Assembly: GCF_000715075.1 (NCBI RefSeq)
Contig: NC_134100.1
Location: 30,858,042 to 30,922,041, forward strand
Source: Nicotiana tabacum
Lineage: Eukaryota; Streptophyta; Magnoliopsida; Solanales; Solanaceae
Length of the DNA: 64,000 nt
Direction: 5' to 3'
The notes beneath the pieces were generated by a model that saw nothing but the letters and a program-made list of their open reading frames with translations, was not told where the DNA came from and searched no databases. Each line of letters begins with the position of its first letter. The first letter of the stretch is position 1. Shown here piece by piece: positions 19,676-48,925 of the stretch. A program made the translations under genes and the position numbers.

Positions 19676-19679
19676 GCAA

Positions 19680-20703
19680 AAGTTGTTGAAATTTCAAGAG
19701 GAACTTGACCAAGTTTGGAACTTGGCAAATCTGTCATTTTCCCTCACTACCCCATATATCAACCCCACACCTCCACAAAATATCCCAAAACCACAAAACC
19801 ATCCTGCTCCTCACCACCACTGCAATACTTGCCACACTCCCAACAGTACTCCGATGCTCATCCTGGAACCTTTTAACTCCACAAATGACCACTTCCATAC
19901 TCATCATAACACCCCCATCTACGTGGAAACCATGCCACACTCTACCCAACCCATTTCAAGCACACCCGAGTCAGATGATAAAGACTCACTCATCAGGAAT
20001 CTGGCTGAAGAGCTTGAGAAGTTGACTAGACGAATTCAGGGCGTCGAAGGAAGTAAAGGGATAGAAGGGTTGAACTACGAAGATCTTTGCATACAACCAG
20101 ATGTCGAACTACGCGATGGGTACAAACCTCCTAAGTTCGAGATGTTTGATGGTACAGAGGATACAAGAGTTCATTTGAGAACATACTATGACAAGCTGGT
20201 CGGAGTAGGAAATGACGAAAGGATCCGCATGAAACTTTTCATGAGGAGTGTGAGAGGAGATGCTCTATCCTGGTACATTAGCCAAGATCCGAAGAAATGG
20301 GCAAACTGGGTAGGTATGGCATACGATTTTATGGACAGGTTCAGGTTCAACACAGAAAATGCACCGGATGTGTTCTACATTCAGAATCTAAAGAAGAAAC
20401 CTACAGAAACATTTTGCGAGTATGCTACTCGCTGGAGGTCCGAAGCTGCTAAGGTCAGGCCTGCATTAGAAGAGGAACAAATGAACAAATTCTTTGTTCG
20501 GGCTCAGGAACCGCAGTATTATGAACAAATAATGATGATCGAGAGCCACAAATCTTCTGACATTATCAAACTGGGTGAAAGGATTGAAGAGGGCATCAAA
20601 AGCGGTATGGTTACGAACTTCGAGGCCCTGCAAGCCACAAATAAGGCCTTACAGTCCGATGGTGTGTCCAAGAAAAGGGATGTAGGTGCTGGAATGGTTG
20701 CAT
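19680..20703 (+). pseudogene. Ogre/Tat gag, N-terminal and capsid part
   Basis: Homology starts at or just before 19683 (LKFQEELDQVWNLANL), cutting into the gag N terminus; the Met there is not the native start. A Pro/His-rich linker leads to the capsid-like core DGYKPPKFEMFDGTEDTRVH, KLFMRSVRGDALSWYIS and FNTENAPDVFYIQ, which is conserved in plant Tat gags. The frame is open for 340 codons to a TAG at 20703. The next segment resumes in the same frame at 20704. Gag builds the particle; loss of the N terminus rules out function. Confidence 0.85.
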
Positions 20704-21790
20704 AGAGGAACAAATCCCCTATCAAATACACTTATCCAATGCCTCCACTCACATATCAACCTACTCCGAACTACCAAGCACCCTTACCCTCTCACCAAAC
20801 TCCACCGCGCACTTATCAATCATCTCCACCTCACACATATCAGCCTACTTCGCCCAGATACTCCCAACCTGCACATGTTTACCAAGCCTACAATACTCAA
20901 CCATCCCACTATCAATCGCCTCCCACACGTCAAAACTTTCCTAGACCTCGATCGAATTTTGACCGCAGGTCTCCCAAACAGTATACTGCCATTGTTGAAC
21001 CCATTGACCAGCTGTACGAAAGGCTCAAAGTCGCTGGTTATGTCAATCCTATCCCTGCTATAACCCCTGAGAACCCTTCTCAATGGGTTAACCCAAACAA
21101 ATCCTGTGCATACCATTTCAGCATGAAAGGACATACCATTGATGAATGCCGTTCTCAAAAAGATAAGATACAGACTTTGATTAATAACAAGATTATCGTG
21201 GCGAAAAAGCCTGCTTCGAATGTCCACAATAACCCTCTACTAGACTACAAGGGTGGAGGTGTTCACATGATTGAAATAGAGGATGATTGGGACCCCAAGG
21301 GATCGATCGGTTTAATCACAGAAGGCGACGATCCAAAGAAGCCAATAGTCACCCTTAATCCGATTGTAGTCCAGATTCAGCCTTCTCGGGTCGCCGAGGT
21401 AAATATGTCTATACCACTTGAGTTTGAAGCACCACCCTCAGCAAAGATGCCATCACCAATTGAGGTCAAGTTTGGGTCTCCGGAAAACACACCTATACCA
21501 TTTGAAGTTGCGGGTTTACCTTCCAAAATACATGTTTTGTTCGGAGTAGAGGTTCCCATTCCAGTAGCAATGTCGGCCATAACACCATTCCATACAAATG
21601 CCATACCTTGGGACTAAATAGCCGGGGTAATAAGAAAAGGGAAGGCCAAGTTCCGGGAAACCATTGCGGCACAGGGTATGACAAGAACCGGTAGAATTTA
21701 TACCCCGGAGCATTTAACTGAGTCAAGCAAGCAGGCCTCTGGTCGGCCAGCCATTACTGAAATCGGGCCCGATGATCTCTAGAGAAAGAT
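20704..21790 (+). pseudogene. Ogre/Tat gag C-terminus with variant zinc knuckle
   Basis: Open from just after the TAG at 20703. A Pro/Tyr/Gln-rich low-complexity stretch (20739-20960) precedes IEPIDQLYERL-like sequence and a knuckle CAYHFSMKGHTIDEC (about 21103-21147). Its spacing is C-x2-H-x5-H-x4-C rather than the usual C-x2-C-x4-H-x4-C. Downstream GGGVHMIEI and a repetitive Pro-rich part with recurring IPxEV/VEVPxP units follow, ending at a stop at 21617 (PWD*). A further remnant runs to a TAG near 21781. The linker between nucleocapsid and protease seems to be expanding by short repeats. Confidence 0.75.
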
Positions 21791-22357
21791 ATAAGCCAAG
21801 GAATACTCGGTCATTGATCAACTAAACAAAACGCCAGCACAAATTTCTATCCTAGCTTTGCTACAAAATTCCAATGCACACAAGAATGCCTTGCTAAAGG
21901 TGCTGAGTGGGGCATATGTACCAGGCAATATCACCGGAGGAGAAATGGAAAACATGGTAGGGCAGGTTTGGAAAGTCACAATATCACTTTTTATAAAGAT
22001 GAGCTGCCACCAGAAGGGTTAAGTCACAACAAAGCGTTGCATATAACCGTACAATGCGAAGATTATTTTATCACCAGAATCCTGATTGATGGAGGGTCCA
22101 ACCTCAACATTAGTCTGTTGGTAACATTTAGTACATTGGGAAAGGGGCTGCATGAGATCAGGGACGGGGCCATCAACGTCAAAGCTTTTGATGGTTCCCA
22201 AAGGTCCACCATTGGGGAAATTGGGTTGTGTTTGCAAATGGGGCCGACTTGGTTCGATGTTGATTTTCAAGTGATAGACATGTCGGCATCTTACAATTTC
22301 TTGTTGGGACGACAGTGGATTCATGTTGCTGGGGCTGTAGAGTCAACACTACATTAG
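21791..22357 (+). pseudogene. Ogre/Tat aspartic protease
   Basis: The segment contains the active-site motif ILIDGGSNLNI (near 22080-22110; catalytic Asp and the following Gly-Ser intact) and the C-terminal hydrophobic strand YNFLLGRQWIH (about 22290-22325), as in retropepsins. It is in an open frame from 21968 to a TAG at 22355. The protease would mature gag and pol. Immediately downstream, in the same frame, comes the G-patch segment. Confidence 0.85.
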
Positions 22358-22831
22358 GCGGTGAAATTTGAGTGGAACCACCATGAGGTGATCATTCACG
22401 GCGATGGTAGCAATCCCATATATAGTCGCCAGACCATCCCAACAATCGGAGGCAGAAGAAAGATAGGCAGGGAGACCTATCACCTTATCGAGCGAGTCAA
22501 CGCCGTCGACAAGGACAAATGGTGGGACAATAAAATTGAAAGCATATTGAACTGGAGCGGATACGAACCTGGCAAGGGGCTTAGCAAGAACCACCAAGGA
22601 ATATCTAAGCCTATCAAACTAAAGAAACATGGCACCACTTTCGGTCTGGGATATGAGTACACTCAGGAGGAATTCAACAATTGGTCGCCACCATGGCGCG
22701 ATCCTTACTATCCGCTGGAGCAGCCAATACCACATTTGGAGCAGACTTTCCAGTCAGCCGATGTTATCAATGGGTCAAAAAAAAGAGGAAGCACTGGTAG
22801 CAGTGAGGAATTTGTTCCTAAGAGACGATGA
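22358..22831 (+). pseudogene. G-patch domain segment between protease and RT
   Basis: Within a 156-codon open stretch, WSGYEPGKGLSKNHQGI (about 22551-22600) and LGYEYT match the G-patch pattern of hydrophobic-x2-GxxxGxGLGxxxxG, an RNA-binding module. The consensus has Gly where Ser now stands in GLSKN. The position, right after the protease and before RT, parallels betaretroviruses, where a G-patch follows the protease. A Ser/acid-rich tail and a TGA at 22829 follow. Likely origin is an element domain rather than a captured host exon, since it is in frame and flanked by element sequence on both sides. Confidence 0.75.
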
Positions 22832-23167
22832 TCTGGACTGTTGTGTTGTTCTCGAGGAGGAGGGGGAGGAAGACCCTTCCATACAGGCAGTAAGTAGAGG
22901 ATCATGCCTCAATAACTGGACCATCAGAACTACCAGAGCCCGAAAAGCCTCGGGGTAGCAAGGCTGAACAAGCATCATGCACTATCTTTTATTTTTACTA
23001 GTTGACTTTCCTTTCGCATTTTTAAATTTCTCAATAAGATCTTCAATGTTCAAAACAGTTATGGAATTTATCAAAGCATTTCGATTTTCCCTATAGATCT
23101 TACTCTTATAATTTTTCTCTCATTACTTTACTTATACAACATTACTATTACTTATCTTGATGAACTA

Positions 23168-24115
23168 ATGACTGTAACATGCAACGAGACAATGCAACAA
23201 ACGGACATAGATTCAGAGGAAGAGGACATACCAGAAGAGATTGTTAAAAAAGTCAAAAATTTTGAGAACAAACCTAAGTCCAACCTGGACGAGACTGAGA
23301 TTGTTAACCTGGGAGATGTAGAGAATGTCAAAGAAACACAAATTAACGTTCATTTGTCACCGTCAGAAAAGGAAGAGTACACAGAATTTCTAAGGGAATA
23401 TGAGGACATATTTGCCTGGTCGTATGATGACATGACTGGTCTGAGTACATCTATTGTGGATCACAAACTGCCAAACGATCCAACATGTCCACCGGTAAAG
23501 CAAAAGCTCAGAAAGTTTAAGCCTGACATGAGTCTGATAATCAAGGAAGAAGTCACTAAGCAAGTCAAAGCCAAGGTTCTCAAGGTAGTAGAATACCCAA
23601 CATGGTTAGCCAACATTGCACCAGTACCAAGGAAGGATGGGAAGGTCAGAGTTTGTGTCGACTACAGGGATCTCAACCGGGCTAGTCCGAAAGACGACTT
23701 CCCCTTGCCAACTATACACATCCTGATCGACAATTGTGCCAAGCATGAATTGCAGTCATTTGTGGATTGTTTCGCGGGGTATCATCAGATCTGGATGGAT
23801 GAAGAAGATGCTGAGAAAACGGCTTTTATTACGTCGTGGGGAATATACTGTTACAAGATGATGCCGTTCGGCCTGAAGAATGCAGGGGCTACCTACATGA
23901 GGGCCATGACCACCATTTTCCACGATATTATACACAAGGATATTGAATTATATGTACACGATGTTATCATCAATTTTAAGAAAGCCACTGATCACATGGA
24001 AGATTTGAGGAAGTTCTTCAATAGACTAAGAAGGTACAACCTAAAACTTAATCCCACGAAGTGCGCATTTGGGGTTCCTGCTGGAAAACTACTTGGGTTC
24101 ATTGTAAGTCGCTGA
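23168..24115 (+). pseudogene. Ogre/Tat reverse transcriptase, catalytic Asp lost
   Basis: An open frame of 315 codons covers the RT palm and fingers: PVKQKLRKFKPDM, VRVCVDYRDLNRASPKDDFPLP, FAGYHQIWMDEEDAEKTAF, MPFGLKNAGATY. The catalytic box reads YVHD (23951-23962): the first Asp of YVDD is His (CAC at 23957-23959). This alone should abolish polymerization. The frame ends at TGA 24113-24115 (VSR*GIE), at a place normally Arg, consistent with CGA to TGA. An acidic linker (DSEEEDIPEEIV) precedes the domain. Confidence 0.9.
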
Positions 24116-24831
24116 GGAATAGAACTAGATCCATCAAAGGTCAAAGCTATTAAAGAGTTGCCACCGCCAAAGAACAAAAAGGACGTAATGAGTTTCTTGG
24201 GGAGACTTAACTATATCAGCCGGTTCATATCACAATCTACAGTTATCTGCGAGCCAATCTTTAAGATGTTGACGAAGGATGCCGCTATCAAATGGACTGA
24301 TGACTGCCAAAAGGCCTTCGACAGAATCAAGGAGTATCTGTCAACATCACCAGTTTTGGTCCCGCCCGAGCCAGGTAGACCTCTATCACTCTACCTCGCA
24401 GTATTGGATAAAACATTCGATTGTGTTCTGGGGCAACATGATGAAACAGGGAGGAAGGAGCAGGCCATCTATTACCTTAATAAGAAGTTCACCCCATATG
24501 AGGCTAGAGCACACCTGTTGTGCTTTGACTTGGGTAGCTCAGAAGCTGAGGCACTATTTCTGTGCCTACACTACATATCTCACATCAAGGATGGATCCTT
24601 TGAAGTACATCTTTCAGAAGCCCATGCCTACTGGCAAGCTAGCCAAGTGGCAAATCCTGTTGAGTGAATTTGACATTGTCTACGTGACTCAGAAAGCGAT
24701 CAAAGGACAGGCATTGGCAGATCACCTTCCCGAGAATCCCGTGGACAGAAAATACAAACCCCTAAAGATGTATTTTCCTGAGGAAGAGGTATCGTTCATA
24801 GGAGAAGACATTGTAGAATCCTATGATGGTT
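24116..24831 (+). pseudogene. RT thumb/connection and first (pol-type) RNase H, degraded
   Basis: After the TGA the same frame gives PPPKNKKDVMSFLGRLNYISRFISQ and KWTDDCQKAFDRIKEYL, the connection region, then an RNase H-like LDKTFDCVLGQHDETGRKEQAIYYL. The family usually begins this with DxSxxxxG; here the first acidic residue is preserved but the following segment is damaged by a small deletion and frameshift near 24505. The alternative frame continues with TCCALTWVAQKLRHYF and MPTGKLAKWQILLSEFDI to a TAG at 24831. In Tat elements this RNase H is commonly degenerate. Confidence 0.8.
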
Positions 24832-25388
24832 AGAGAATGTTTTTCGATGGAGCAACAAATTTCAAAGGAGTTGGTATAGGAGCAGTCCTGGTATCAAAAA
24901 CCGGTCAGCATTACCTGGTCTCTACCATACTCAGATTCTCCTGCCAACAACATGGCCGAATACGAAGCCTGCATCTTAGGGCTCAAGATGGCTATTGACA
25001 TGAACATTCAAGAGTTGCTAGTAATTGGGGATTCAGACTTGCTTATACATCAGGTCCGAGAAGAATGGGCAACCAAGAACTCCAAGATACTCCCTTATCT
25101 GCATCATGTACAGGAGTTGAGAAAGATATTCACAAAAACAAAATTCCAACATTTTCCCAAAGTCCAGAATGAGTTCGCCGAAGTATTGGCTACCCTATCA
25201 TCCATTATACAACATCCAAACAAGAACTTCATTGATCCCATTCCAGTAAAGGTCCATGATCAGCCATCTTACTGTGCTCATGTCGAAGAAGAAGCAAACG
25301 GGAAGCCTTGGTTTCATGATATCAAGGAATACTTGGCAAAAGGAGAATACCCAAAACTTGCGAACACTGCTCAGAAGTGCACACTTTG
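24832..25388 (+). pseudogene. Second (archaeal-like) RNase H of Tat elements
   Basis: RMFFDGATNFKGVGIGAVLV opens the domain (Asp in FFDGA), followed after a frameshift near 24920 by MAEYEACILGLKMAI (Glu) and LLVIGDSDLLIHQV (Asp), then HFPKVQNEFAEVLATL. The last acidic position, Asp in most relatives (NEFADALA), is Glu here. The D-E-D pattern is that of the additional RNase H acquired by the Tat lineage and thought to substitute for the degraded pol RNase H in removing RNA from the hybrid. A TGA at 25387 (TL*RL) again fits CGA to TGA. Confidence 0.85.
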
Positions 25389-26554
25389 AAGGTTGTCTAA
25401 CAATTTCTTTCATAGTGGAGGAATCCTGTATAGGAGGACTCCTGATTTGGTATTACTAAGATGTATCGACGCGAAGGAAGCATCTAAACTACTAGAAGAA
25501 ATCCATGATGGGACCTGCGGTCCACATATGAATGGTTTTGTCTTAGCCAAGAAGATACTCCGAGCTTGTCACTTTTGGATGACTATGGATACGGACTGCA
25601 TCCAGTATGTCCAGAAATGCCACCGCTGTCAGATACATGCAGACATGATAAAGGTACCTCCAAATAAGCTTAATGCAACGAGCTCACCATGGCCTTTCGC
25701 CGCTTGGGAATGGATGTCATCGGATCAATTGAACCTACCGCATCAAAAGGGCACAGGTTCATCCTAGTAGCAATTAATTATTTCACCAAATGGGTTGAAG
25801 CAGCATCTTACAGAGCAGTGACTAAGAAAGTCGTGGCAGACTTCGTCTGTGATCGTATCGTTTGTTGATTCGGGATCCCAGAATCAATCATCACTGATAA
25901 TGGTTCCAATCTTAACAGTGACCTGATGAAAGCCATGTGTGAAACCTTCAATATCAAACATAAGAATTCTACAGCCTACAGACCTCAGATGAACGGAGCT
26001 GTAGAAGTCGTCAACAAGAATATCAAGAAGATACTAAGAAAAATGATAGAGAAGCATAGGCAGTGGCACGAGAAGCTATCATTTGCTTTATTGGGATACC
26101 GCACCACAGTCCGCACATCAACAGGAGCAACCCCCTACATGTTGGTATATGGTACAGAAGCAGTCATTCTCGCCGAAGTAGAAATCCATTCCTTGCGGAT
26201 CATACAAGAAGCTGAGCTCGACGACGCAGAGTGGGTGAAGGGTCATTACGAGTAGCTGGCTTTTATCGATGGAAAGAGAATGAACGCCGTTTGCTATGGT
26301 CAGCTTTATCAGAACAAAATGTCCAGAGCCTTAAACAAAAGAGTCAAGCCGAGACAGTTCACACCGGGGCAGCTGGTGTTGAGAAAATCTTTCCATATCA
26401 AGATGAAGCCAAATGAAAATTATCTCCAAATTGGCAGGGTCTGTACATGGTTCACCGGGTTCTAACAGGAGGAGCCCTCATACTTGCAGAAATGGACGAA
26501 GAAGTCTGGCCAAAGCCGATCAATTCAGATATAGTCAAGCATTACTATGTGTAA
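25389..26554 (+). pseudogene. Ogre/Tat integrase, broken
   Basis: HHCC zinc-binding region (FHSGGILYRR ... HRCQIH) spans about 25405-25640. A one-base shift lies near 25705. The core follows with Asp in MDVIG, YFTKWVEAAS, a TGA at the usual Arg of VC*FG (25865-25867), Asp in SIITDNGSN (about 25900) and Glu in GAVEVVNKNIKK (about 25998), so the catalytic triad is present. The C-terminal part breaks into several frames and ends YYV-TAA at 26554. Integrase joins the cDNA to the chromosome. Confidence 0.85.
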
Positions 26555-26695
26555 ACCTTATGCTTTCCTATATAATGTAAATTGAACTACGCCTGACCTG
26601 ATTCCTGTTTAAGAGGGGATAAGTAGGCAGCCCTATGGGTTCGTTCACAATTCAAAAAAAACTTTTATTTCCCCCGCAATTGGAAACCGGGGCAA

Positions 26696-26812
26696 AATTT
26701 TGAGGAGGACCCTCAAAATTCCAAAGTTAATTCCAGCCAATTATCACTAGCAGCAGTTAGAAGTAGCAACCCAGTAAACTGGGGCAGAAATTTGAGGAGG
26801 ACCCTCAAAATT
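26696..26812 (+). repeat. Duplicated hairpin just downstream of pol
   Basis: Hairpin 1: perfect 10-bp stem aattttgagg/cctcaaaatt (26696-26705 with 26711-26720) around the loop AGGAC. Hairpin 2: 26791-26797 with 26803-26809, same loop AGGAC, stem shortened by one mismatch. Each is preceded by an accgggg/actgggg block. They lie about 140 and 240 bases after the pol stop. Confidence 0.7.
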
Positions 26813-27258
26813 CCGTAACAAGGATGGTTGCAATGTCTGGGACCACGTAGTCTTAAGTTCTTTCTTAGGAAACTATTCTTAATTATATATTTATGTATGC
26901 CTTTACTAAATCATGCATGTTTATTGCCAAAATTGCCTTGTTTAGCAAATCTACCCCAATGATACGTACAGTATCACCAGATCAAAGCCGAGCAAGTCAA
27001 GCAGAGCCAGCGGGGATACGAACTAACCTCCCCTCTTTACAAAACTCGTGATTTTTTTAGATGCAGGCACTTGAATCGCAAAATTATCAAATATACTATA
27101 CACTCACGAGACTCACATAGCTCAGAAATACTACTCTCAGGACCGTTGCACTTACTCACATCTGCTATCTGCATGCAGTTCTCCCAGCAGACACAATATC
27201 CCCGGCAGTCGCAATATCACAATCCACTATCAGCTAAGAAAACTCTATTATCATTTGT

Positions 27259-27552
27259 TTTTCGCGACTAAGCTTTGTCTCCATCTGCATTCTCTACATT
27301 GCATAAGGCTACCATTCTGCCTTCCGAGACTAAGCTCTATCTCTATTTGCATTCTTGCATTGCATAAGGCTACCATTCTGCCTGGCTACCATCCTGCCTT
27401 CCGAGACTAAGCTCTGTCTCCATCTGCATTCTGCATTGCATAAGGCTACCATTCTACCTTCCAAGACTAAGCCCTGTCTCTATTTGCATTTCTGCATTGC
27501 ATGAGGCTACCATTCTGCTTTTTGATACTAAGCCCTGTCTCCATTTGTACGG
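27259..27552 (+). repeat. Minisatellite, unit about 60-75 bp, about 5 copies
   Basis: Recurring unit: gactaagctctgtctccatttgcattctgcattgcataaggctaccattctgcc, in two shortened halves here as gactaagctctgtctc plus gcattgcataaggctacc. Copies differ at several positions and one has an extra ggctaccat piece. Confidence 0.75.
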
Positions 27553-27860
27553 CTGGAAGATCGCCGCCTTTATTTACATTTGCATGGCTGAAAGATCGCC
27601 ACCTTATTTACATTTGCATGGCTGAAAGATCGCCACCTTATTTACATTTGCATGGCTGAAAGATTGCCACCTTTATTTACATTTACATGGCTGAAAGATC
27701 GCCACCTTTATTTACATCTGCATGGCTGAAAGATCGCCACTTTATTTACATATGCATGGCTGAAAGATCGACACCTTATTTACATTTGCATCGGCTGAAT
27801 GATGGCCACCTACTGCATTGCATAGGCTGAAAGATCGCCAAACACTGCATCTCATGGATT
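27549..27860 (+). repeat. Minisatellite, unit about 35 bp, about 8 copies
   Basis: Unit starts catggctgaaagatcgccac and continues ctttatttacatttg. The first two-thirds are very regular; the last two copies are diverged (tgatggccac, gatcgccaaac). It follows the previous array without a gap. Confidence 0.85.
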
Positions 27861-28472
27861 GAAAGATTTCCAAATTATCCGAAGGCATCATTGTTCGGAG
27901 GCACCATTATCATAACCCGAGAACACCATTCCATGGCCTGAGGATCCCTTTTATCTTTTGCATATCATCATTCAAAGGCACCAGAGTTCAGAGGCATCAT
28001 TCTCAGAGCCCGAGAGCATCATTTCATGGCCTGCGAATCTTTTATTATTCGCTTCATGGCCCAGGACGTCATGGTCTAAGGACGTCATCCTAACCGTCCA
28101 AAGACAACTTTCATGGTCCGACGTGAATTTGCATCATGTTTAAATTTATGCACAATAGATGCTTGTATCGCTAACTTGCAGGTAAACCAGCAAGCAACGG
28201 ACATCTCATCAGGAGCGATCCCGCTCCAGTTCTCGCAGCCCTATCAGGTTTCAAACCATTCACCCCAATCTTAATATTGCATCCGTTCTTGAAAGTCTCC
28301 ATCGGCCTACTCCGCCGACGGGTCCTGAACTGCATATGGCCTGATTCCTGTAAAATCAGGGACATGTAGGCAACTCAAAACCAGAGTACGACCTAAGTCT
28401 CCTCGAACCCTTTCGTTCGGTCAAAATTGGCCATCATATCTTTACCCGACAACTCTTTCATCCTTCCCGGGT

Positions 28473-28485
28473 AAAGAGGGGCTGC
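28473..28485 (+). other. Polypurine tract of the Ogre/Tat element
   Basis: aaagaggggctgc directly precedes the LTR start TGTTGATACCC at 28486. An AAGAGGGG core next to the LTR is the expected PPT. Confidence 0.75.
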
Positions 28486-29689
28486 TGTTGATACCCAATT
28501 TTTTCCCGTGTATTTTTTATATGTAAAATACCTTTCAAATAGCATGTATATGCATATATAAGTATACCCCAAGGCTACATTAGTTTTTCTTAATTTTTCA
28601 AAGATTTTTAAATCAATTTACTGCCCTATTTTATCAAGAAAACCCAATAATTATCCCAAAATTATCATTTTTGGTGATTCATTTATTGTAGTCTCATGTT
28701 TATATTAAAATATAGTTAAGGTATATTTTACACATTTTTTACAAATTTATTTGGTATTTTAAAGGATAGAATTGCATAATTGCAATATCAGCCATTTTTT
28801 AGGTTTAAATTCATTTCATATTCATAAAATGAGATTTTATATTTTTAAATTGATACTTATGTATTATAAATCATTTTTATGCTTTCAATTTTTTTCCAGT
28901 AATTAATTTACTATTTATTTTAATTTTAAAAGGGATAAACTGGCTATTTAAATAACAACCCAATTCATTTCAATTTTAGCCTAAAATATGGCTTTATTAA
29001 ACTCAATCCCCAATCCAAATTAAACCGACCCAAGACCCCAAGCCCAATCCTAAAACTACCCGACCCAACCCGGATCAAATCTTGGCCGTTGATCAATTTT
29101 GATCAACGGTCTAGATCCGCCCTTACCTTTTTTAATCAAACGACCCCCCCCCCCCAATACCCCTCATTTTCCCTCACTCGTCTCTATCTCTCTACCTCTG
29201 GTGCTCTCTTGAACCTTCCCTTCCCCTCCTCTTCAATGGGTTATGTTCATCTTCTCCGGTAACTTTCTAACTTAAACCCATGGTGGTTTCACCACCCACC
29301 AGGCCACCTACGGCTCCCACTTTGGTTAACTGAAGCGGCATGACTCAACCATGAAGAGTTGGGTCCAGACCTCTATTGATTCGAGTTCCACGTCCATCTC
29401 AGCCCCGTTCCAGCAAGCTATGTCTATTTCGAAACCTGGTCTCGACTCCTCTTTCTTAGATCCAAGCCTTTCTCATCGTTTGGGTTCCTCTAAAAACCCT
29501 AGTTTTAAGGGTTTTCTCCTCTCCTTAGATCTGTTCCAGATCCATGTTTTCCTTAAGCTTTTAAACGATTTTCCTGACTTTTCTTTCAAAAATTACTTTC
29601 AAAATCATTTCTTTTCCAGCCTAGGGTTGTTCTGAAATATTTCTCCGACTTTCTTTTTCTTTTGTGCGTATTTGCTTCTACTGTGTTAT

Positions 29690-29850
29690 TGTGTGTTTCT
29701 TCTATTATATTTTCTTCTACTGTGTTCTTGTATTTTCTTCTACTATGTTCTTGTATGCATTTTCTACTGTATTCTTGTATGCTTTTTCTACTGTATTCTT
29801 GTGTGTTTCTTCTACTGTATTTTCCCTTACTGCGTTCTTAAGGGATCTTT
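29690..29850 (+). repeat. ttcttctactgt(g/a)ttcttgta minisatellite in LTR
   Basis: About six copies of a 25-30 bp unit built on ttctactgtattcttgtatg. The same array, in reverse, is at 43560-43745 in the partner LTR. It creates Tyr/Cys/Phe-rich frames with no coding evidence. Confidence 0.8.
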
Positions 29851-30434
29851 TGTATGCTACTAGACGCTACTTCTTTTCTACATTGCTAACCTATGTGACA
29901 ACCATGCTCCTGTAGTCTATTAACTACTGATTTTGCAATGACACGACATCCTCTTTCAGCTTAACATGTTTATATGCTCTTTATATGTGATGAACTTCCC
30001 TTTAAAGTGACTTTTAAATTTGTGATTAGCTCAGACTTCCTTCTGAATAGGGCTTATTGATTTCTTTCAATTATTTGTTGATTTCCCTAAGATTCGACTT
30101 AAGCTAAAAACCTTTCTCAGCTTTTCTAACTTGGTTCACTCATGAACCAATAATTACAAGATCTCTAACATGTGATTTACTGGCTACTAATTGATTTTTC
30201 TTACCTTATTTGTACAACCGTGTATTTTAAAAATTCTGTCCTTAAGTAAACTTCTATGTATTTACCTCTAATTGCCTACTTTGCACAAAGTGCTTATTTA
30301 ATTTCTTTCCTCAAATAGTTTTTACCCATTTGAATATGAATTCCTTAATTAAAGGGAGTCTAGTGTGATTGATTCTTAATTGATATTCAGTTCCTTAAAT
30401 ATTTTCTTGCCTTATTTCTGTCTGATTTTCACAC

Positions 30435-30440
30435 TATAAA
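30435..30440 (+). promoter_or_regulatory. Candidate TATA box of the giant LTR
   Basis: actataaaggcacgac is conserved in the partner LTR (reverse at 42497-42502) within otherwise AT-rich sequence. Transcription would start shortly downstream, about 1.9 kb into the LTR. Confidence 0.45.
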
Positions 30441-34593: not shown

Positions 34594-34930
34594 CACATAC
34601 GGAAGGGGAGCCACAGGTGCAGGGTCGTAGGCACACATGGGGAGTTCGCAGGTGCAGACGGAGTTGAGATAGGCTGGGTTTATAGGTGCGTAGGAGACGT
34701 CGCATATGCGAGACCGCAGATGCGGATAGGTGCCCGCAGAAGCGGAAGTGAGGAGGTCAGGCAGTGACCGCAGGTGCGAGGTCTTTTCCGCACCTGCATA
34801 GTCGCAGATGTGGATATTGAGTGCAGGTGCGAAGTTTGGGGGATTTAGTGATTTTCCATAGGTGCGGAGGTTATTGCGCAGATGCGGCACTGCATATGCG
34901 CATATTTAGCCGCAGGTGCGAAGGCCAAGG
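34594..34930 (+). promoter_or_regulatory. CGCA...TGCG palindrome cluster upstream of TATA
   Basis: At least ten boxes, including CGCATATGCG (34701-34710), ccgcagatgcgg, ccgcaggtgcg and cgcagatgcgg, end about eight bases before TATAAATA at 34938. Spacing is roughly 15-45 bp. Confidence 0.55.
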
Positions 34931-34937
34931 CAGAAAG

Positions 34938-34945
34938 TATAAATA
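34938..34945 (+). promoter_or_regulatory. TATA box of the chromovirus LTR
   Basis: TATAAATA, followed by agaacacttcacg. Best TATA match among the chromovirus LTRs here and placed directly after the box cluster. Confidence 0.6.
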
Positions 34946-36843
34946 GAACACTTCACGAATTTTGGTTCATTTCCACCGTTTTCAAGTCGATATTTAGAGC
35001 TTTTGGAGTGATTTTGAAGGGAGATTCAAGGCTTTTCGGTGAGGCAAGTTGCTTGAGCTCTAATACTCCTATCTATGGTGTTTTTTCGTTGTTTTATCAA
35101 TTAATTAGTGGAAAATAGGGGTGAAAATGAGGGGTTATGGCTTGGGATTTTGGAGAGTTTCATTTGAGGATTTGAGGGACCAAATGGAGTCGAATTTTGA
35201 TAAATTTTGAATGTATGCAGTCGTGAGTGAATGGGCTTTCTAGTTTTATGACTTTTGTAGGATTTCGAGACGTGGGCCTGGGGCCCGGGTTTGAACCAAT
35301 TTTCGATTCTTGGTCTAATTTAGTAGTTTTTCTTGTGGAATTTATTCCTTTAGCATATATTGATGGTATTGTACTAGTTGTGAATAGATTCAGAGCATTT
35401 AGAGGCTGATTCAAAAGGCAAAGGCATCACAGAGTAGGATTATGATCGGTTTGAGGCAAGTAACGATTGTAAATCTGGTCCTAAGGGTATGAAACCCCAG
35501 ATTTTTGTATCATTTCACTATTTTGAGGTGGTGCACATGCTAGGTGATGGGCGTATGGGCGTGCAACAATGGGGATTGTGACTTGGTCCATTCCGTATCA
35601 ATTGTAAAGTTGAATATTTTCTTGAAACTACATACTTCTTACGTGTTTTAAAACTAATTTATGTAAATCAGGCAGGATGCCATGTTTAGGCCTTATGCCA
35701 GTGTTGTTTGGACTCTTAGAGGTCTTTTCTTTCTATCCTCTCATTGTTTTTGATTGGAAATCTATACTCAGTCATGTTTATACTTATTTACTACATAACT
35801 CAATCTCTATTACTCTGTTTTGACGCATCATATAAATGTTGTTTGGGCTGAATACTTTGTTTTTTCTGAGAGCCCGAGAGGTTGAAAAGGTTTATGACTG
35901 AGTGAGGCGAGGGCCTATTTTGTTAGGATATTTATGGGATCGGGATGTATGTCGCAGCATGTTTGATATAGGCCGAAGGCCTCATTGAATTATGCCATAA
36001 TTGTCTTGATATAGCGCTTGGGCTGAAGGAGCCCCTCCGAAGTCTGTACACACCCCCAGTGAGCACAGGTACCTACTGAGTGCGAGTGCCAAGTCACTGG
36101 GAGGCATTAGTGTTAGTGAGGTTTGCCTGAGGGGCTGTATATGAGGTATAGTGAAGTTTTCCCGAGGGGTTGAGTGATGTTTGCCCGAGGGGCTATTTAT
36201 GATTTCATCATTTTTGCTCACCCTTGCATTGAGCCATCGTTTGAAAACTTTTGGAAGACGGTTTTAAATGATTTTACTGGAAATGGATTTTTAACAAGCT
36301 ACTTTTTTTCAAACTATGGTTTTAAAAACGTGTCATATTTTACTGAATTTCTGTGATATTAACTTTACTTGCATTATTGCTCGTCACTACTTCTCAGTCT
36401 TTATTTAGTGTTGTTACTTACTGAGTTGACGTACTCAAGTTACTCCATGCACCTTGTGTGAAGATCCAGGCATTTCTGGACACGGTAGCGGGTGTTGATT
36501 ATTCAGCTGTAGATCCATCAGAGTTAGCAAGGTAGTTGCCCGACGATTGCAGCCTTACTTTCCTCCCTCTTTATCTTTCCTTAGTTGTATTTAGTTATTT
36601 CCAGACTATGTTGGTCTTGATACTGTCAGATGGTTGTAGTAGATTCTCATGACTAGTGACAACCCAATACCGGACTTTCTTTTCTGCACTTTTGTTTTGA
36701 TTTGAACTCCTCTATGAAGATTTTATATTAAATAGCTTTGGAATTATCTTCAAATAAGAATATCGATTTGTTTTGGTAATATGTCGACTTGCCTAGTACC
36801 ACGTTAGGCGCCATCACGACAGAGTAGTTTTTGGGTCGTGACA

Positions 36844-37230
36844 AGTTGGTATCAAAGCCTAGGTTACATATGTCTCACGAGTTATGAGCGGGTTTCATAA
36901 AGTCTTGCGAATTGGTACGGAGACATATGTACTTATTTTTGAGTGGCTTCAGAACACCTAGGAAACTTAACTTTCTTGAATTCTTATTGTGCGACATTGA
37001 TTCAGCCTGAAGCGTAACTCTTTGAATTCCTTTCATGCATTTGTATGCGCATGTGAGCGCTTGATATCAGTGGTGCATCAGTGTCTTGAGGTCGAATTTT
37101 GACTGTATCTTGAGCACTGAGGTGTTTATTGTGTGAGCACGTGCTTTTGGATTTATATGTCCGTTCTTTGGAAACCTGAGTACCATGAGTGACCTCTACC
37201 CGTTCAGTTGAGTTTTCCTTTCTAGTGTTG
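36844..37230 (+). other. PBS and leader of the chromovirus, truncated
   Basis: TTGGTATCAAAGCCTAGG (about 36846-36863) is a tRNA-iMet-type PBS with one core change. The leader shows the usual tcatgagcgggtt...agtctt block of this family (also reversed at 5820-5870). It stops near 37230, before a gag start, and Ogre/Tat sequence on the other strand follows. The exact breakpoint is uncertain by some tens of bases. Confidence 0.65.
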
Positions 37231-37648
37231 TTCAAATCTTCCATCTTTCCTTTGTTCCTGTTTCTGATGGGGCTAGGAAGAAGAGTGGGTGGAGGGCCCT
37301 CGGATCTTTTGGAATATGATAATGATGCCAGAGTGCACGAACTAACCTTTGGGAAGGGAAAAAAATAAAAGTAAACAAAAAAGGTAACAAGTCAGTGAGG
37401 ATTATAAGAAACAATGTTGTGATATTTAAACACATAGTGCAAGAATGTAAATCGTGTCCTAATTTGGGGAACCTCTTGTGCCCGAGGTAGGCCTAGCGAC
37501 AAGTTGATTTGGAGAACTTAGAATGCTAAATGCCTCATTTTATTGATAAAAAGTAGACGAATTACAAAACGACGCTAAATAACAGAAAATAAAATGTCAC
37601 TAGTGGCCATGGGCCTTATTACATTTCTTAAAGCAAAAGAACAAGCTC

Positions 37649-39249
37649 CTACTTGGTCCCAGAAGGACCTTCCCCAGACTCGGCATCTTTGGCTCCATTG
37701 AACAGTTTCACCAACTCGCGAAGTCCCAGCAACAGGTAGGCTCTGGCTAGGTGTCCGCCCTCGTTTCCTTCAGCATTTTGGCAATCCTCGATTCTTTTGA
37801 GAAATTTCCTTTCCAGCTCTACTAAACCCCGCTCCAAGTATCCCAGTCGCTTGTTGGCACTGACAACCATGTCTTTCCATTCTTCAATCAGCTTTTGGTG
37901 GGCTTCTTGTATCTCACGGTGCTCGTTTTCACATTCCCAAATCCTCTTGCGTAGTTGATTGTATTTGACCTATGCCTCAGCCTTTTCATCTATGATTCTG
38001 TGACCTCGAACAAACCGGGGTTGACCTAGACCATTATGATTATCCTCCAGCCAGCCTGAATAGTATGGAGTACAACCAGCATGGTATCTGTCCGGCTTGA
38101 TGGTATCCCTTCCCATGACGATTTTGCAATGCCACATATGCTGAGCCTGGCACTTGTAAGGGCTATCATCATCCTGAAATTCAGCCCGGAAGTGACTCAT
38201 CTTGTCGACCCTTGGTATAACCTACTTCCTACCAGCCTGTCTCATAACTCGGAGAGAGACGTAAGGGTAGGTTCCTCTCAAACCGATCAGTATCAGAAAC
38301 GGTGCATCCCTGGATCGGGCGATTAATTCCTTAGTAGGGAACCACTCGAACATCCATTGTACTTGATCCTTAGTTAGATTTTCAAACAGCTCTAACCACC
38401 CCTCGGCATCTTCTAGTTGAGCGAACATGTTAGGCATGTAGTTTATTCATCTTGGATGATGGAAGGCTATGTGATCATCCCAACCCCTTCGCTGAATCTC
38501 TTGTCGGTATTCACCTCTTTGGAGGTGCTCCATGAGCCAGAGATAGAGTAGCAAATTGCAACCCTCGAAATGTTGGGCTCCTTGTTGACACTTCTCCAAG
38601 GCTCGGTATATCTTTGGGAGGATCATGGGCATTATGCTGAATGGTTGCCCACCAATTCCCTCCATTAGAGTTTTGGTTACCATATCTAGCCTGGTGTGGA
38701 ACCTTGCTTTCTTCATTGGAAACACTATCATCCCCAGTAGGCAAAACATGAAGACAAAGACCCTTCGGTAAAGATGCCCCAATGATGTGAGGGCAAACTC
38801 GTCAGGTTAAGTACGGTAAGATTTGATATGACTGTATCTCTCGTACAAATAATCAAAGGGAATATACGACTCTTTCAAGCATATCAAGTATGGATTCTTT
38901 TTAGACCTATCACTTTGAGGAAACCTCTACCCTTAGGGTTTTCCGGCATTAACAAACCCGGAGTTTCCCATGGTATACCAGCTAATCCTCATATTTCATC
39001 CAGCAGGGGTGTCATCTCAATGTCCCCAAAGCGGAACACAAACCTATCACAATTCCAAAATAGAGTAGTAACTTCTATGATCTTGTTGTTAGGTTGGATT
39101 TCCAGGAGAGAAGGTAGATTTCCTAGGTATATCCGGACAAGAGTCTGATCGCTGGAATGAAGATCCTCCCACCAGCTTAGCAATTTTGGGTGGATGTTGG
39201 TGTCCATGCTGAATTTAGGGACTTCGTGACTCATATTTCTGCAAGACAA
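37649..39249 (-). pseudogene. Ogre-type ORF1 (unknown function), broken
   Basis: About 530 codons over several frames: MSHEVPKFSMDTN...LLSWWEDL, YLGNLPSLLEIQP, FWNCDRFVFRFGDIEMTPLLDEI, then after a stop near 38990 AGIPWETPGLLMPEN, GHLYRRVFVFMFCLLG, FEGCNLLLYLWLMEHL, WMFEWFPTKELI, HMWHCKIVMG, and a Glu/Lys/Arg-rich coiled-coil-like tail (38000-37780). Interruptions lie near 38985, 38860, 38440, 38222 and 37970. This matches the plant retroelement ORF1 whose N terminus is also at 63318-64000. Its role is not established; the aromatic-rich core plus coiled coil resembles plant mobile-domain-like proteins, which is only an impression. Confidence 0.8.
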
Positions 39250-39920
39250 AAGGGTTAGGCCCTTACCCCCACCAGACTCGACTATTAAATATCAGTAATT
39301 GGCATAAAACATTTAGCTCTCCAAATAAATGCACAGAACGTGGTAGTGTCCCTTTGGGTTTTAGAGAAACCCAGTGGACTTTGGACAAGGCTATCTTAAA
39401 GAGTCATTATGCGGACAACATAACTGACTCGGCTAGGTTTGACCATGATCCATGCACAATTTAAACAGGGTAAGGTTTCTATGGGGTTTTAGACTGGTAC
39501 CCTTGAGCGGACAACTCAAGAGGGAAAGGCACGGAACCGTCGACTACACCGTTGATTGACTGGTTTCACCGCAAATACGCCTTTTCTGGATTTAGGGGTG
39601 ATAATATCGGAAGAGCGCAACCACTCATTATAAGCATTGCTATGGTATTTTGTTTGGCACGAGTAGAATATGATGTTGCACATGATTATGCAACAATTAA
39701 AGCAGGTTGTCACGTATTTGCACGTTAAGAAAGCAATAAATACAACAGTTCCATAATTTAAAGCGGTAATTAAGGAAAGAAGTAAAGGAAAAGAAACAAA
39801 AAGACAAGTCAGTTTTGCAATCGAAAAGAAAATTGAATGCTTAAAAGAAATAAACAAATAATTGCGCATAAAGAAGCATAAATCACAATAATAGTCTGAA
39901 ATGGTAAAAGCCTAAAAGTA
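39250..39920 (-). other. Leader of the Ogre/Tat element
   Basis: Non-coding region between PBS and ORF1. AT-rich, with an A-run-rich block at 39780-39860. I see no further element in it. Confidence 0.6.
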
Positions 39921-39941
39921 TCCCTAGCAGAGTCGACATAC
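39921..39941 (-). other. Primer-binding site of the Ogre/Tat element
   Basis: Minus strand tatgtcgactctgctaggga starts just after the LTR end at 39942. It equals TGGCGACTCCGCTAGG at 62181-62196 with a few changes, two of which are C/G to T. The site is the type assigned to tRNA-Arg in Ogre elements (from memory). Confidence 0.7.
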
Positions 39942-42900
39942 TGTCGTGCCCCCTTTTTCTCGTGAAATGGGGTTTATGACATTTGGGAGGACAACTCGTT
40001 CCCTTTTGGGAATTGGGTTTGAATAGAAGAGTCACCACCTAATGATTAAAGTGCATTAGGACACTAGGAGAGGTTTGTTTTGAGAAACCAGAGATTGGGT
40101 AAGGGATTGAAATTATCCCAAGGGGATGGTGTTAGGCACCCCTTAGGATCCACTAGTGTGATTCCCGGCCAGACAATTATTGTGACTTTAAGCGCAAACA
40201 ACACGTAGGCAAATAAAACTTCAAGTAAGAAGGGGTTTTCACATAATGGTTACTAATAAATAAAGTTGGAAAGAATTAAAAGAAAGCTGAGAGAAACAAT
40301 TTGAAATTTCAAAGAAACAAAGAAACGAATAAAAAAACAAAGGAAAAGGGGTCCTAGGTTTATAAATAATATGGATCACCCCATGCAATGTCCGGTAATC
40401 AGTCCTCCATGAGGGGCTACACGTGACATTATCGCATGGTCATCATATCCATATCTACCCTTCCCGCCCCGTTAAGGTAAAAGCACAGATTGGTCTCGAT
40501 TACTTATTGCATGTTATTAGTCGTCCTGATCCTATCAATCCCAGAGGCATTTAGGACTACTAATCCTAAAGGGAAGGAATGTCGGCTTATTTGTAGTTTC
40601 AAAGGAAAAATTCTAAGACGACATGCAAGAACATGTATAACAAATTGGGGGAAAGCACGTAACAGGCAAAAGGCTCAGATATACCTCCTTAGACAAAGAA
40701 GCACGTAATTTAGCATGACTTACACATACTGCTTAGGGTCTGATTAAATACTCAACACGGAAGAACTTAAAGGTTGAGACAGACTGATTTATTACATAAT
40801 TCAGATAAGAAGCCTGAGTCAGTCTTGCCTGCTGGTTGTAGCTAATAAAAAACAGATTCAGTTTAATTTTTACCCTAAGGCTTGCCTAAGTGTTGGATGA
40901 GGATCCTATAGGTATGATATCTACTGATTTCAGAAACCAATGAAGTAAACTGAATACATACTGATTAAGAAAATTTGTCAGTTTATTAAAGAAAAGCAAG
41001 TTTTAGCAAATGGTTATAAATTCTGCAACTAATGGTACGTCGTTATCACTGGTTTAGACTTATAAGCGAGTGAAATGGTTCAGACTTGATTAATAGCTCT
41101 TATAGGCATGCTTTCTATGCGTTGTTGATTTCAAAACCTTTATAGACATAGTAAAATGCAGAACCCCTATAAACATGATATCTAGGTGCTGAAATTTTGT
41201 TTAAAGCCTATGAGCATGATTGCTAGATGAAAATGGTTATACAAAATTCAGAGGGACCTATAGGCATTTTTTCTATATGCATATGCAGAGTTATGCTTTC
41301 CAAATACTCATGGACATGATTTCTATATGAGAGAATTCAGAATATCTATAGGCATAGTATCTACATGAGAAATGCATAAGCACCTATAGGCAGGATATCT
41401 TTATGAGAATGCAGGATTTCAGAAGCACCTATAGGCAGGATATCTATGTGAGAATGTAGAATTTCAGAAATACCTATAGGCAGGATATCTATGTGAGAAT
41501 GCAGAAATTCAAAATTACTTATAGGCAGGATATCTACCCTTTGCATACATAGTTACCTTCCCCTTTTCACTAGCCATCCCCAAGAGGTTATTACAAATTA
41601 TTACAGCCCAGAATGGAGTAAAAGAACACATCAGAAATTAAAAGGTACAACCAAAGAGAGCCTGATTCAGACTTCATGTCTGAAATATGAGGTAAACCAA
41701 CTCCATGAGATCATGATCCAAAGCCTTTATCCCATTTGAGTATGTCAAAGTTCCCTAAGAGTCTCAAATGAACTCCGGGCAGTGCTTGCACCCAAATGTA
41801 TTACCAGATTTGGACAGGTGCAGTGTGGAAGGGCCAGCCCTTAAGTGTCCAAGTTCAGAGGGAACTCAAGGTCCCAAGTAAAGGCTCACAAGAGGGGGCG
41901 GAACTTAAAGACTAAGAGAGGTGCAAGTGCAGAAACAGAATTCTGAGAGAGGGAAATGGGAAGGGAACAACTACAAATAAATACACATAGGGGTATAGGG
42001 GAATAGGGAGGTTGTAAAGAGCCTATTGCTTAAGCAAGGGCAGGCTTTAGGCATGCTCAACAATGAAGGATGTCAGCATGCCATAAGCTTGTCAAAACAC
42101 ACATTAATAAAGGCTAGGATCCTAAGGGATCAAGTTTAATTCATGGACAATAACTTACATATTGCCATTATCTTAAACTACAGCTCAAACACATAAGGGG
42201 GCAAGGGTTTAGGATTCATGATAGAAACATGCAGAAAGAAATCAACATGCTTATTTAAGTGTTGAACTATACAGAAATAGTAAGTACACATAAATACAAA
42301 AGCAGTAAATAAACATAATGTTGTTGTGCTAAAGCTTAAATCAGGACATACCAGTTTCAAAGAAACAAAGTAGAGAAAAGCAGTAGGTCTTGTAAATAGG
42401 CCACAGTGCAGACAATAAGAGAGAATACTATTGTGTGTAAATGTGAGTCCAAAAAGACTATGAATGAGTTCATTGAGTTTGTGAAAGGGTCGTGCCTTTA
42501 TAGTGTGAAAATCAGACAGAAATAAGGCAAGAAAATAGTTAAGGAACTGAATATCAATTAAGAATCAATCACATAAAACTCCCTTTAATTAAGGAATTCA
42601 GATTCAAACAGTTAAAAACTATTTGAGGAAAGAAATTAAATAAGCACTTTGTACAAAATAGGCAATTAGGGGTAAACACATAGAAGTTTACTTAAGGACA
42701 GAATTTTTAAAATACGCGGTTGTACAAATAAGGTAAGAAAAATCAATTAGTAACCAGTAAATCATAGGTCAGAGATCTTGTAATTATTGATTCATGAATG
42801 AACCAAGTCAGAAAAGCTGAGAAAGGTTTTTAGCTTAAGTCGAATCACAGGGAAATCAGCAAATAATGGAAAGAAATCAATCAGCCCTATTCAGAAGGAA

Positions 42901-44923
42901 GTCTGAGATAATCACAAATTTGAAAGTCACTTTAGAGGGAAGTTCATCACATATAAAGAGCATATAAACATGTTAAGATGAAAGAGGATGTCGTGTCATT
43001 GCAAAATCGGTAGTTAATAGACTACATGAGCATGGTTGTCACATAGGTTAGCAATGTAAAAGAGAAGTAGCATCTAGTAACATACAAAAGATCCAGTGTA
43101 AAGGACCTTAGAAGAGTTTAGCAAAGGTCAGAATCATATGAAAAACAAGGATTTCAAAACTCAGTTTAGAGACTCGAAATAGGTGTGAAAGAGTTAGGTT
43201 TTTTGAAACAAAACCAGTTCAGGCAAATCACATAGCCTATGGTTTCCAAACTTGGAAACCCCCCAAAATTCTAAGGTTCTACCATCAATCGAATGTAGAG
43301 ATGATAGGGCAAGTAGTTAAGTCGAAGCAGGTTCAGAGGTCTCAGAAAATAACTGAAACCTCTAACATGTTCCTCTCAGCAACAGAAACTCATGAAAAAC
43401 ATGCTAGCAGAGTAACATGCAAAACACGGTAGAAGAGCTCAAAGAAAATAGAGTAGAAAAAACTAATACGAAACATAATGGAAAAAATTGATAAGAACAG
43501 TAGGGAAAGCATATTAAGAGGTTTAAGAAGAAACTTAACCGGAACTCAGTAGATGGAACTTAATAAAAAAACATTCAAGAACGCAGTAAGGGAAAATACA
43601 GTAGAAGAAACACACAAGAATACAATAGAAAAAGCATACAAGAATACAGTATAAAAAGCATACAAGAACATAGTAGAAGAAAATACAAGAACATAGTAGA
43701 AGAAAATACAATAGAAGAAACACACAAGAATACAGTAGAAGCAAATACGCACAAAAGAAAAAGAAAGTCGGAGAAATATTTCAGAACAACCCTAGGCTGG
43801 AAAAAAATGATTTTGAAAGTAATTTTTGAAAGAAAAGTTAGGAAAATCGTTTAAAAGCTTAAGGAAAGCATGGATCTGGAACAGATCTAAGGAGATCAGA
43901 AAAACCTCAAAACTAGGGTTTTCAGAGGAACTCAAACGATGAGAAAGGCTTGGATCTAAGCAAGAGGAGTAGAGACAAGGCTTTGAAATAGACATAGCTT
44001 GCCGGAACGGGGCTGGAGATGGCCGTGGAACTTGAATCAATAGAGTTCTGGACCCAACTCTTCATGGTTGAGTCATGCCGCTTCAGTTAACCAACGTGGG
44101 GAGCCGTAGGTGGCTTGGTGGGTGGTGAAACCACTATGGGTTTAAGTTAGAAGGTGACCGGAGAAGATGAACAAAACCCATCGGAGAGGAGGGGAAGGGA
44201 AGGTCCCACAGAGAACCAGAGGTAGAGATATAGATACGAGTGAGGGAAAATGAGGGGTATTTGGGAGGGTCGTTTGATTAAAAAAGGTAAGGGCGGATCT
44301 AGACCGTTGATCAAAATTGATCAATGGCCAAGATTTGATCCGGGTTAGGTCGGGTAGTTTTAGGATTGGGCTTGGGGTCTTGGGTCGGTTTAATTTGGAT
44401 TGGGGATTGGGTTTAATTAGGCCAGATTTTAGGCTAAAATTGAAATGAATTGGGCTATTATTTAAATAGCCAGTTTTTCACTTTTAAAATTAAAGAAAAT
44501 AGTAAATTAATTTTTGGAAATAAATTAAAATCATGAAAATGATTTATAATGCATAATTATCAATTTAAAAATATAAAATCTCATTTTATGAATATGAAAC
44601 GAATTTAAACCTAAAAATGACTAATATTGCAATTATGCAATTCTATCCTTTAAAATACCAAATAAATTTGTAAAAAATTTGTAAAATATACCTTAACTAT
44701 ATATTAATATAAACATGAGACTCTAATAAATTAATTACCAAAAATAATAATTTTGGGATAATTATTGGGTTTTCTTGATAAAATAGGGCAGTAAATTGAT
44801 TTAAAAATCTTTGAAAAATTAAGAAAAAATAGTAGCCTTGGGGTATACATATATATGCATATACATGCTATTTGAAAGGTATTTTAAATATAAAAAATAC
44901 ATGGGGAAAATTGGGTATCAACA
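39942..44923 (-). mobile_element. Giant LTR (4982 bp), 5' LTR of the Ogre/Tat element
   Basis: Ends TGTCGTGCCCCC at 39942 and gggtatcaaca at 44923. It matches 28486-33025 in reverse across its length, including both minisatellites, TATA (42497-42502) and the ttggtgttaggca box near 40128. It retains about 0.48 kb (43085-43560) missing from its partner. AGCGG follows at 44924-44928. Confidence 0.9.
41100..41545 (-). repeat. About 48-bp minisatellite, partner array
   Basis: Reverse counterpart of 31398-31890, with about four well-conserved units (41360-41545) instead of five, and decayed units to 41100. Copy number has changed since the two LTRs were made identical at insertion. Confidence 0.8.
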
Positions 44924-45616
44924 AGCGGTGGTTAGACCGGCCATGATGTATGGGGCTGAGTGTTGACTGGTTAAAAAATCACATATCCAGAAGATGAAGG
45001 TAGCAGAAATGAGGATGTTGAGGTGGATGTGCGGGCATAATATGATGGATAATATTAGTAATGATGATATTCGGGAGAAGGTGTGCGTGGCTCCCATTGA
45101 TGACAAAATGCGGGAAGTGAGGCTTAAATGGTTTGGGCATGTTCAGAGGAGAAGCCCAGATGATTCGGTAAGGAGGTGCGAATGGCTGGTTGTAGAGGGC
45201 GTGAGAAGAGATAGAGGGCAGCCTAAGAAGTATTGGGGGAGGTGATTAGGCAGGATATGGCGAGGCTTCAGATTTCTGAGGACATGGCACTTGATAGGAA
45301 CACGTGGAAGTCGAGTATTAGGGTTATAGGGTAGGAGGTAGTTGAGTCTTGGCTTATGTCATGAGTTTGTGAGTCTGTTCTGGTAGGTATACTATTTTTC
45401 TTTTGCTTTGTATCTTTCTTCTTGACTGCATGTTGTTCCTATTTTTCATATTATTTCTGTGTTGTTACTGATATTGTCCCTTTTTGTCTTTTTGTCTTCT
45501 TGAGCCGAGGGTTTTTCGAAAATAGTCTCTCTACTCCTTCGGGGTAGGGGTAAGGTCTGTGGACACACTACCCTCCCCAGACCCCACTAGTGGTAAGGTC
45601 TCTCTACTCCTTTTGA
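44924..45616 (+). pseudogene. LINE ORF2 fragment (part 2) and 3' UTR
   Basis: From AGCGG the plus strand encodes A-VVRPAMMYGAEC*LVKKS, MKVAEMRMLRWMCGHNMMD, VRLKWFGHVQRRSPDDSVRRCE and RDRGQPKKYWG, then a stop (45243) and a broken tail. This is the C-terminal end of plant RTE-like LINE proteins. The 3' UTR carries ctccttcggggtaggggtaaggtctg and cctccccagaccccac, typical of these LINEs, and ends near 45616 without the usual gtt repeats. It continues the fragment at 33026-33357 in frame. Confidence 0.85.
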
Positions 45617-45846
45617 TTCTTGTTAATAACCGCGCGAAGCGCGGACCATTACACTAGCTAATTATAAATTGGTAAAAATATATGGAACAACATGCCATAT
45701 TTTTTTATTTTATGTAAACATCAGTAAATTGTAATGTAATGAATGGGATAACATGGGGTGATATTTATTTTTCTTCAGATGGAATTTTTCCATTTTTGAG
45801 TTAAAAGTTAGTAACTTAACATAAATGAAGCCAGCCACTGACCAAG
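45617..45846. other. AT-rich DNA with GC hairpin and CTAG
   Basis: Contains the hairpin ccgcgc-gaa-gcgcgg (about 45630-45644) followed ten bases later by CTAG. This resembles a Helitron 3' terminus but lacks the T expected after it. The remaining 190 bp are AT-rich and unassigned. Confidence 0.35.
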
Positions 45847-48906: not shown

Positions 48907-48925
48907 AATTAAAATCAGAGCTATA
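48907..48925 (+). other. Degenerate primer-binding site
   Basis: attaaaatcagagctatagg follows the LTR end; it matches TTGGTATCAGAGC only in its second half. Confidence 0.5.

Follow-up and report, generated by a model that had tools for sequence, protein, structure and literature searches.

How does one locus of the tobacco genome come to hold the two ends of a single retrotransposon, facing each other on opposite strands? The stretch of DNA analyzed here, referred to as the window, is a 64-kb segment of Nicotiana tabacum (NCBI RefSeq assembly GCF_000715075.1, contig NC_134100.1, positions 30,858,042 to 30,922,041) that contains no N and has a G+C content of about 41%. It carries two parts of an Ogre/Tat element, a Ty3/gypsy retrotransposon with long terminal repeats (LTRs). 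The 3' part (~19656-33025, plus strand, ~13.4 kb), defined by Pfam matches and, at its start, by alignment to Nicotiana gag proteins, holds the rest of gag, pol, and the 3' LTR; the 5' part of the same element (37164-44923, minus strand, ~7.8 kb) holds the 5' LTR, the primer binding site (PBS) position, the leader, ORF1, and the first 27 codons of gag. The gag-pol pieces were seen on the plus half only, and ORF1, the leader, and the PBS position on the minus half only; when coding pieces from one half were tested, no second copy was detected in the other. Summed over both halves, the element is ~21.1 kb long. We consider it likely, with good confidence, that this is one element, inserted in a 5'-truncated long interspersed nuclear element (LINE) and now lying as two opposed halves after an inversion.

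An initial reading made from the letters alone (hereafter, the sequence-only reading) had described LTRs of the same family pointing at each other, and this was confirmed. The 3' LTR (28486-33025, plus strand, 4,540 bp) starts with TG and ends with CA, and the 5' LTR (39942-44923, minus strand) measures 4,982 bp. In a self-comparison of the window by BLAST, the pair appeared in inverted orientation as two blocks with 92.0% and 93.7% identity, and a global alignment, proposed as a check in that reading, gave 94.0% identity over 4,484 aligned sites, with 167 transitions and 103 transversions (Kimura two-parameter distance [K2P] of 0.063) and 15 gaps, including gaps of 479, 45, and 10 nt. Both LTRs contain 45-nt and 24-nt tandem arrays that differ in copy number; the 5' tip of both is TGTTGATACCC, with 3' tips reading ...GCAACA in one and ...CACGACA in the other. 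In element orientation, CCGCT stands outside both LTR ends as a perfect 5-bp target-site duplication, one copy at 33026-33030 (CCGCT, plus strand) and the other at 44924-44928 (AGCGG on the plus strand), exactly where AGCGG or its complement had been noted at the two LINE junctions. With the rate of 1.5e-8 substitutions per site per year applied to Nicotiana (PMC10817978), the K2P of 0.063 would date the insertion to about 2.1 million years (My) ago, and since the inversion is younger than the insertion, ~2 My would be its upper age limit. The passages of that paper drawn on here also describe Ogre as having expanded recently in N. sylvestris and N. tabacum.

The same LTR pair could have come from two independent Ogre copies, each truncated separately and facing the other by chance, and the family is indeed abundant in Nicotiana, with 113 Nicotiana proteins among the 120 listed of 343 gag matches and 116 Mb of Ogre given for N. 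sylvestris in the cited part of PMC10817978. Two such insertions, however, would carry the same 5-mer beside both LTR ends by chance only about once in 1,024 cases by our own estimate, and their LINE flanks would have to abut to the base.

The upstream part of the C-terminal region of the LINE reverse transcriptase (RT), in a copy that is 5' truncated, lies at 33031-33356 (minus strand; placed by translation and by relatives, with the 5' end set by eye), and the downstream part, comprising the RT C-terminus and the 3' tail, lies at 44924-45600 (plus strand; 3' end set by eye). When the insert and one 5-mer are removed, the flanks read through in a single frame. The joined query of 137 residues retrieved 775 protein matches at E <= 1e-3, the best of which point to Nicotiana, the top one at 83% over 99%, and among the 120 listed, 116 span the insertion point by 15 residues on each side, none of them with a gap there and with a mean identity of 66% across those 30 residues; as these relatives were retrieved with the joined query, the comparison speaks to the absence of a gap and not to similarity. 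The RT C-terminal region is common to the target LINE and Solanaceae LINE proteins, and we take the clade to be plant RTE-type. Pfam returned no match for the LINE piece 44967-45242; the upstream piece contains stop codons. The expectation that the LINE frame is restored by removal of the insert was borne out locally, at the insertion point, and did not extend beyond it, the copy being interrupted at other places by a frameshift and by stops. No target-site duplication belonging to the LINE was detected; the flanks searched, around LINE ends that are approximate, share only 7-mers. Just past the LINE 3' end, a hairpin is followed by CTAG (45620-45660), an arrangement that presumably resembles a Helitron 3' terminus; the LINE may lie in or beside a Helitron.

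This insertion site also bears on auto-integration of the element's own complementary DNA (cDNA), a process that gives inverted-segment products with retroviral and Ty1 cDNA. Under auto-integration, a 5-bp duplication would mark the point where an LTR tip meets the element's internal region; instead, the LINE adjoins the outer tips of both LTRs, and host DNA lies within the inverted segment. The explanation was rejected on the first of these grounds, and its chance of being correct is close to nil.

The proximal break is placed by protein alignment inside gag, after codon 27, at 37164 / ~19656-19668, and not between ORF1 and gag at 19676/37231, where the sequence-only reading had put it; those positions were off by 8-20 and 67 nt, respectively. 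A gag protein search gave 343 matches, and the counts of spacing below refer to the 120 listed. These include 113 named as Nicotiana and 4 as Solanum, with an N. sylvestris protein at the top (79% identity over 97% of the query). No identical protein was present among these 120 for gag, nor among the 120 listed of 5,272 matches for RT, which were mixed in origin. Among the listed gag matches, 15 align to the final 60 residues of the minus half, 49 to the first 120 of the plus half, and 12 to both. The two alignments extend as far as the break in 10 of these 12, with P0033 (a weak, non-collinear match) and P0097 (whose minus-side alignment ends early) set aside. The spacing between the gag halves was exactly 3 residues in all 10 measurable relatives, as in ...VSKE-SPS-QLEQK... 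and ...VSKE-SAS-QLEKK..., so that the proximal ends are mutually continuous, as predicted for a two-break inversion. When longer query stretches were used, 16 of the 120 matched both sides, namely, the same 12 plus P0099, P0016, P0039, and P0101; the spacing in P0099 is again 3, and P0016 is spurious on the minus side.

The minus half breaks off at 37164, with gag codon 27 as its last, and relatives match the plus half from 19668. The residues directly before 19668 in the plus half are Ser-Ala-Ser-Phe, and Ser-Ala-Ser is found at that position in 3 of the 10 relatives (P0030, P0049, and P0091). Loss at the gag side would thus amount to about 9 nt or fewer and is possibly zero, because the plus half and these three relatives alike read Ser-Ala-Ser; the plus half's own sequence may reach back to ~19656, with no gag loss. 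For two separately truncated copies, the truncation points would have to agree within ~9 nt over ~11.6 kb of internal sequence. Two separate insertions were ruled out by the target duplication, the LINE continuity, and the abutting gag halves, and we regard them as exceedingly improbable. The proposals of the sequence-only reading concerning the whole element fared well against these data: complementary halves (gag-pol versus ORF1, leader, and PBS) of one element of ~21 kb agree with the length measured here, a single insertion is backed by the 5-bp duplication, by LINE continuity, and by gag halves abutting within three codons in the 10 measurable relatives, and inversion of the segment between the junctions is the simplest rearrangement that restores element and LINE together.

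The assignment to Ogre/Tat was examined from the coding regions. Seven plus-strand pieces (19641-26252 scanned) gave matches above Pfam cut-offs, in the order Retrotrans_gag, G-patch, RVT_1, RT_RNaseH_2, RT_RNaseH, RVT_3, and Integrase_H2C2, and an eighth gave an rve match below cut-off; no Pfam match was obtained for 20706-21614, 21818-22354, or 25674-25865, nor for the protease region, which is named by motif. By Pfam, the RT_RNaseH_2/RT_RNaseH pieces lie at 24116-24830, RVT_3 lies at 24880-25386, and Integrase_H2C2 lies at 25390-25764, all on the plus strand. We read the RVT_3 match as a second RNase H (aRH) between RNase H (RH) and integrase, as expected of Ogre/Tat, and, according to the passages of Neumann et al. 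2019 (PMC6317226) drawn on here, the extra RNase H of angiosperm Ogre and Retand sits between the first RNase H and integrase. The TG...CA ends and the 5-bp target duplication likewise agree with Ogre/Tat. The ORF1 region (37652-39291, minus strand), DUF7745 or plant mobile domain (PMD)-like and including homology to 63321-63986, consists of several open pieces separated by stops. Its Pfam matches are weak, with three DUF7745/PMD matches in two pieces, every one under the curated cut-off, and none in the remaining ORF1 pieces scanned. In the relative P0002, the ORF1 C-terminus, a spacer, and gag are part of one predicted protein, giving the unbroken order; an extra ORF upstream of gag, another Ogre/Tat character, is therefore recognized through this gene model, its Pfam backing being weak. 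An intron between protease and RT is also an Ogre/Tat trait, as is a PBS for tRNA-Arg. Gene model P0250 leaves out 22956-23140, a stretch that lies between G-patch and RT and is compatible, at the level of gene models only, with the Ogre intron; other models skip overlapping stretches of different lengths, and P0255 aligns straight through. The copy is dead, because its coding pieces no longer read through, owing to stops and frame changes; judging from their arrangement, the opposed halves could not yield one RNA. Tandem repeats with 61-, 34-, and 137-nt units occupy 27266-27850, between integrase and the Ogre 3' LTR, and a second, diverged Ogre-type ORF1, with DUF7745 above cut-off, is located at the window edge (63318-63986, plus strand).

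The foreign sequences flanking the two halves give a less simple picture of the distal break. Within the inverted segment, beyond the LINE piece, is an LTR of a Ty3/gypsy chromovirus-type element (33893-36844, plus strand; recognized because other LTRs in the window are homologous to it, with ends set by eye), followed by the PBS and leader of that element (36845-37163, plus strand), with the PBS taken by us to be of the initiator-Met type. At junction J1 (37163-37164), this leader (plus) meets Ogre gag codon 27 (minus). At junction J2 (19651-19668), an LTR fragment (plus) meets Ogre gag (plus); the fragment is the first ~775 bp of a different LTR (18881-19655, plus strand; start set by eye), cut at J2, and its portion 19376-19651 is homologous to 46248-46525.

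Several observations weigh against a clean two-break inversion. The distal ends fail to show the continuity that it predicts, the leader and the LTR fragment sharing no element, and the uninverted order would set the chromovirus-type leader and the LTR fragment facing opposite ways. The leader homology can be traced only to 36999-37031, leaving the origin of the 130 bp next to J1 unproven. On the gag side, P0039 and P0101 match both halves but are models without the gag N-terminus and yield no spacing. Of the proposed second breakpoint beyond the LINE, the break itself holds, and a clean reciprocal cut does not, the ends being unrelated and opposed. Because the distal ends are discontinuous, DNA loss or further breaks on the distal side must be assumed, and one or the other probably occurred; distal DNA loss during end joining is the simplest repair of the model. 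A later deletion extending into gag is unlikely because the gag ends fit within three codons. Less likely possibilities than distal loss are a multi-break event and a junction that already existed at the exact distal point.

Inverted repeats at the breakpoints could also have recombined to give the inversion, and both junctions do have LTR-type repeats nearby (18881-19655 and 33893-36844) that fall in one broad group. We found no homology between the foreign flanks of J1 and J2, and only one match links the J2 flank with the J1 side, a direct-orientation one at 61% identity that lies 2.6 kb from J1. The absence of flank homology speaks for end joining rather than repeat recombination; the latter was rejected on this ground and is very improbable. 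An assembly error, with wrong joins at 37164 and 19656 and an intact element within the LINE on the real chromosome, is unlikely, and it is the serious alternative that remains. Near-identical LTRs cause such errors, as reported for a 22-Mb region of maize in the part of PMC2773423 drawn on here, and distal ends that do not match each other would fit with this. But the window is free of N, a simple contig flip would have kept the distal ends continuous, which they are not, and the foreign flanks at J1 and J2 are not copies of one repeat.

The history that best accounts for these data runs as follows. An Ogre/Tat element integrated once in a 5'-truncated LINE, generating the 5-bp duplication seen at both LTR ends. 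Later, a double-strand break would have occurred in gag, ~27 codons in, at the junction now visible, together with one or more further breaks beyond the LINE, among chromovirus-type LTR elements, where junctions are likewise present; the cause of either is a matter of inference. The DNA between them, a 17.5-kb fragment that now occupies 19656-37163 and carries gag-pol, the 3' LTR, the LINE upstream half, and the chromovirus LTR and leader, would then have been rejoined in reverse by end joining, with ~9 nt or fewer lost where the gag side was joined and, on the distal side, either a lost stretch or a piece of a larger multi-break event. Flipping 19656-37163 is a single move that reunites ORF1 and gag, makes the LTRs direct, and aligns the LINE halves around one element.

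A broader version is in our view improbable. It would have a block of nested retrotransposons shattered on a micro scale by several local breaks, with a number of LTR elements (the Ogre and the chromovirus tangle at 48.9-54.7 kb) cut and rejoined at once in mixed orientation, and the split Ogre would be one visible outcome. That tangle consists of chromovirus-like fragments in mixed orientation (48861-54729): gag (49166-50063, plus), RNase H (50854-50555, minus), an LTR end (50890-51149, plus), RT (52674-51340, minus), and a further gag (54062-53419, minus), along with an inverted 188-bp pair of 88% identity (48372-48559 / 51150-51337). It may represent another rearranged block or else a pair of opposed elements. 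Elsewhere in the window, a chromovirus-like element on the minus strand (4839-18790) has a 3' LTR copy that continues into leader and gag start, giving a tandem-like layout of LTR, internal region, LTR, and partial internal region; the identity of the copies shifts from 97.6% to 89% at a 2.7-kb stretch (14327-17016) unique to the right-hand copy. Near an LTR is a ubiquitin-conjugating enzyme fragment (56888-57079, minus strand; UQ_con, E 2.5e-08), which is either a gene remnant or a captured exon.

Very large size is a trait of the Ogre clade, and the tobacco copy has it in common with that clade. It is also like the Ogre clade of Tat, as characterized in the relevant passages of Neumann et al. 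2019 (PMC6317226), in its extra ORF before gag, its second RNase H, and its 5-bp duplication, and differs in being broken into two opposite halves. Its best gag match, in N. sylvestris, links it to the Ogre family of N. sylvestris and N. tabacum, which, in the cited part of PMC10817978, expanded recently in these species. The case is of a known kind, nested retrotransposons later broken by rearrangement. Like the nested LTR elements described in passages on maize (PMC2773423) and wheat chromosome 3B (PMC4290129), the tobacco copy was inserted in an older element and later broken up; truncation in wheat 3B is ascribed there to illegitimate recombination, whereas the break in tobacco is an inversion. 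Tandem LTR retrotransposon structures, as presented in the portion of PMC11899658 considered here, also show a complex arrangement of one family's LTRs, but they alternate LTRs and internal regions, and the tobacco LTRs face each other instead. The locus provides a datable, near base-level record of how one block of plant retrotransposons underwent a single small inversion. The wheat 3B pipeline, as far as it is set out in the part of PMC4290129 cited, joins collinear pieces only, and annotation bound to collinearity in this way would presumably score two truncated copies here, with the possible result that inversions in this size range are undercounted.

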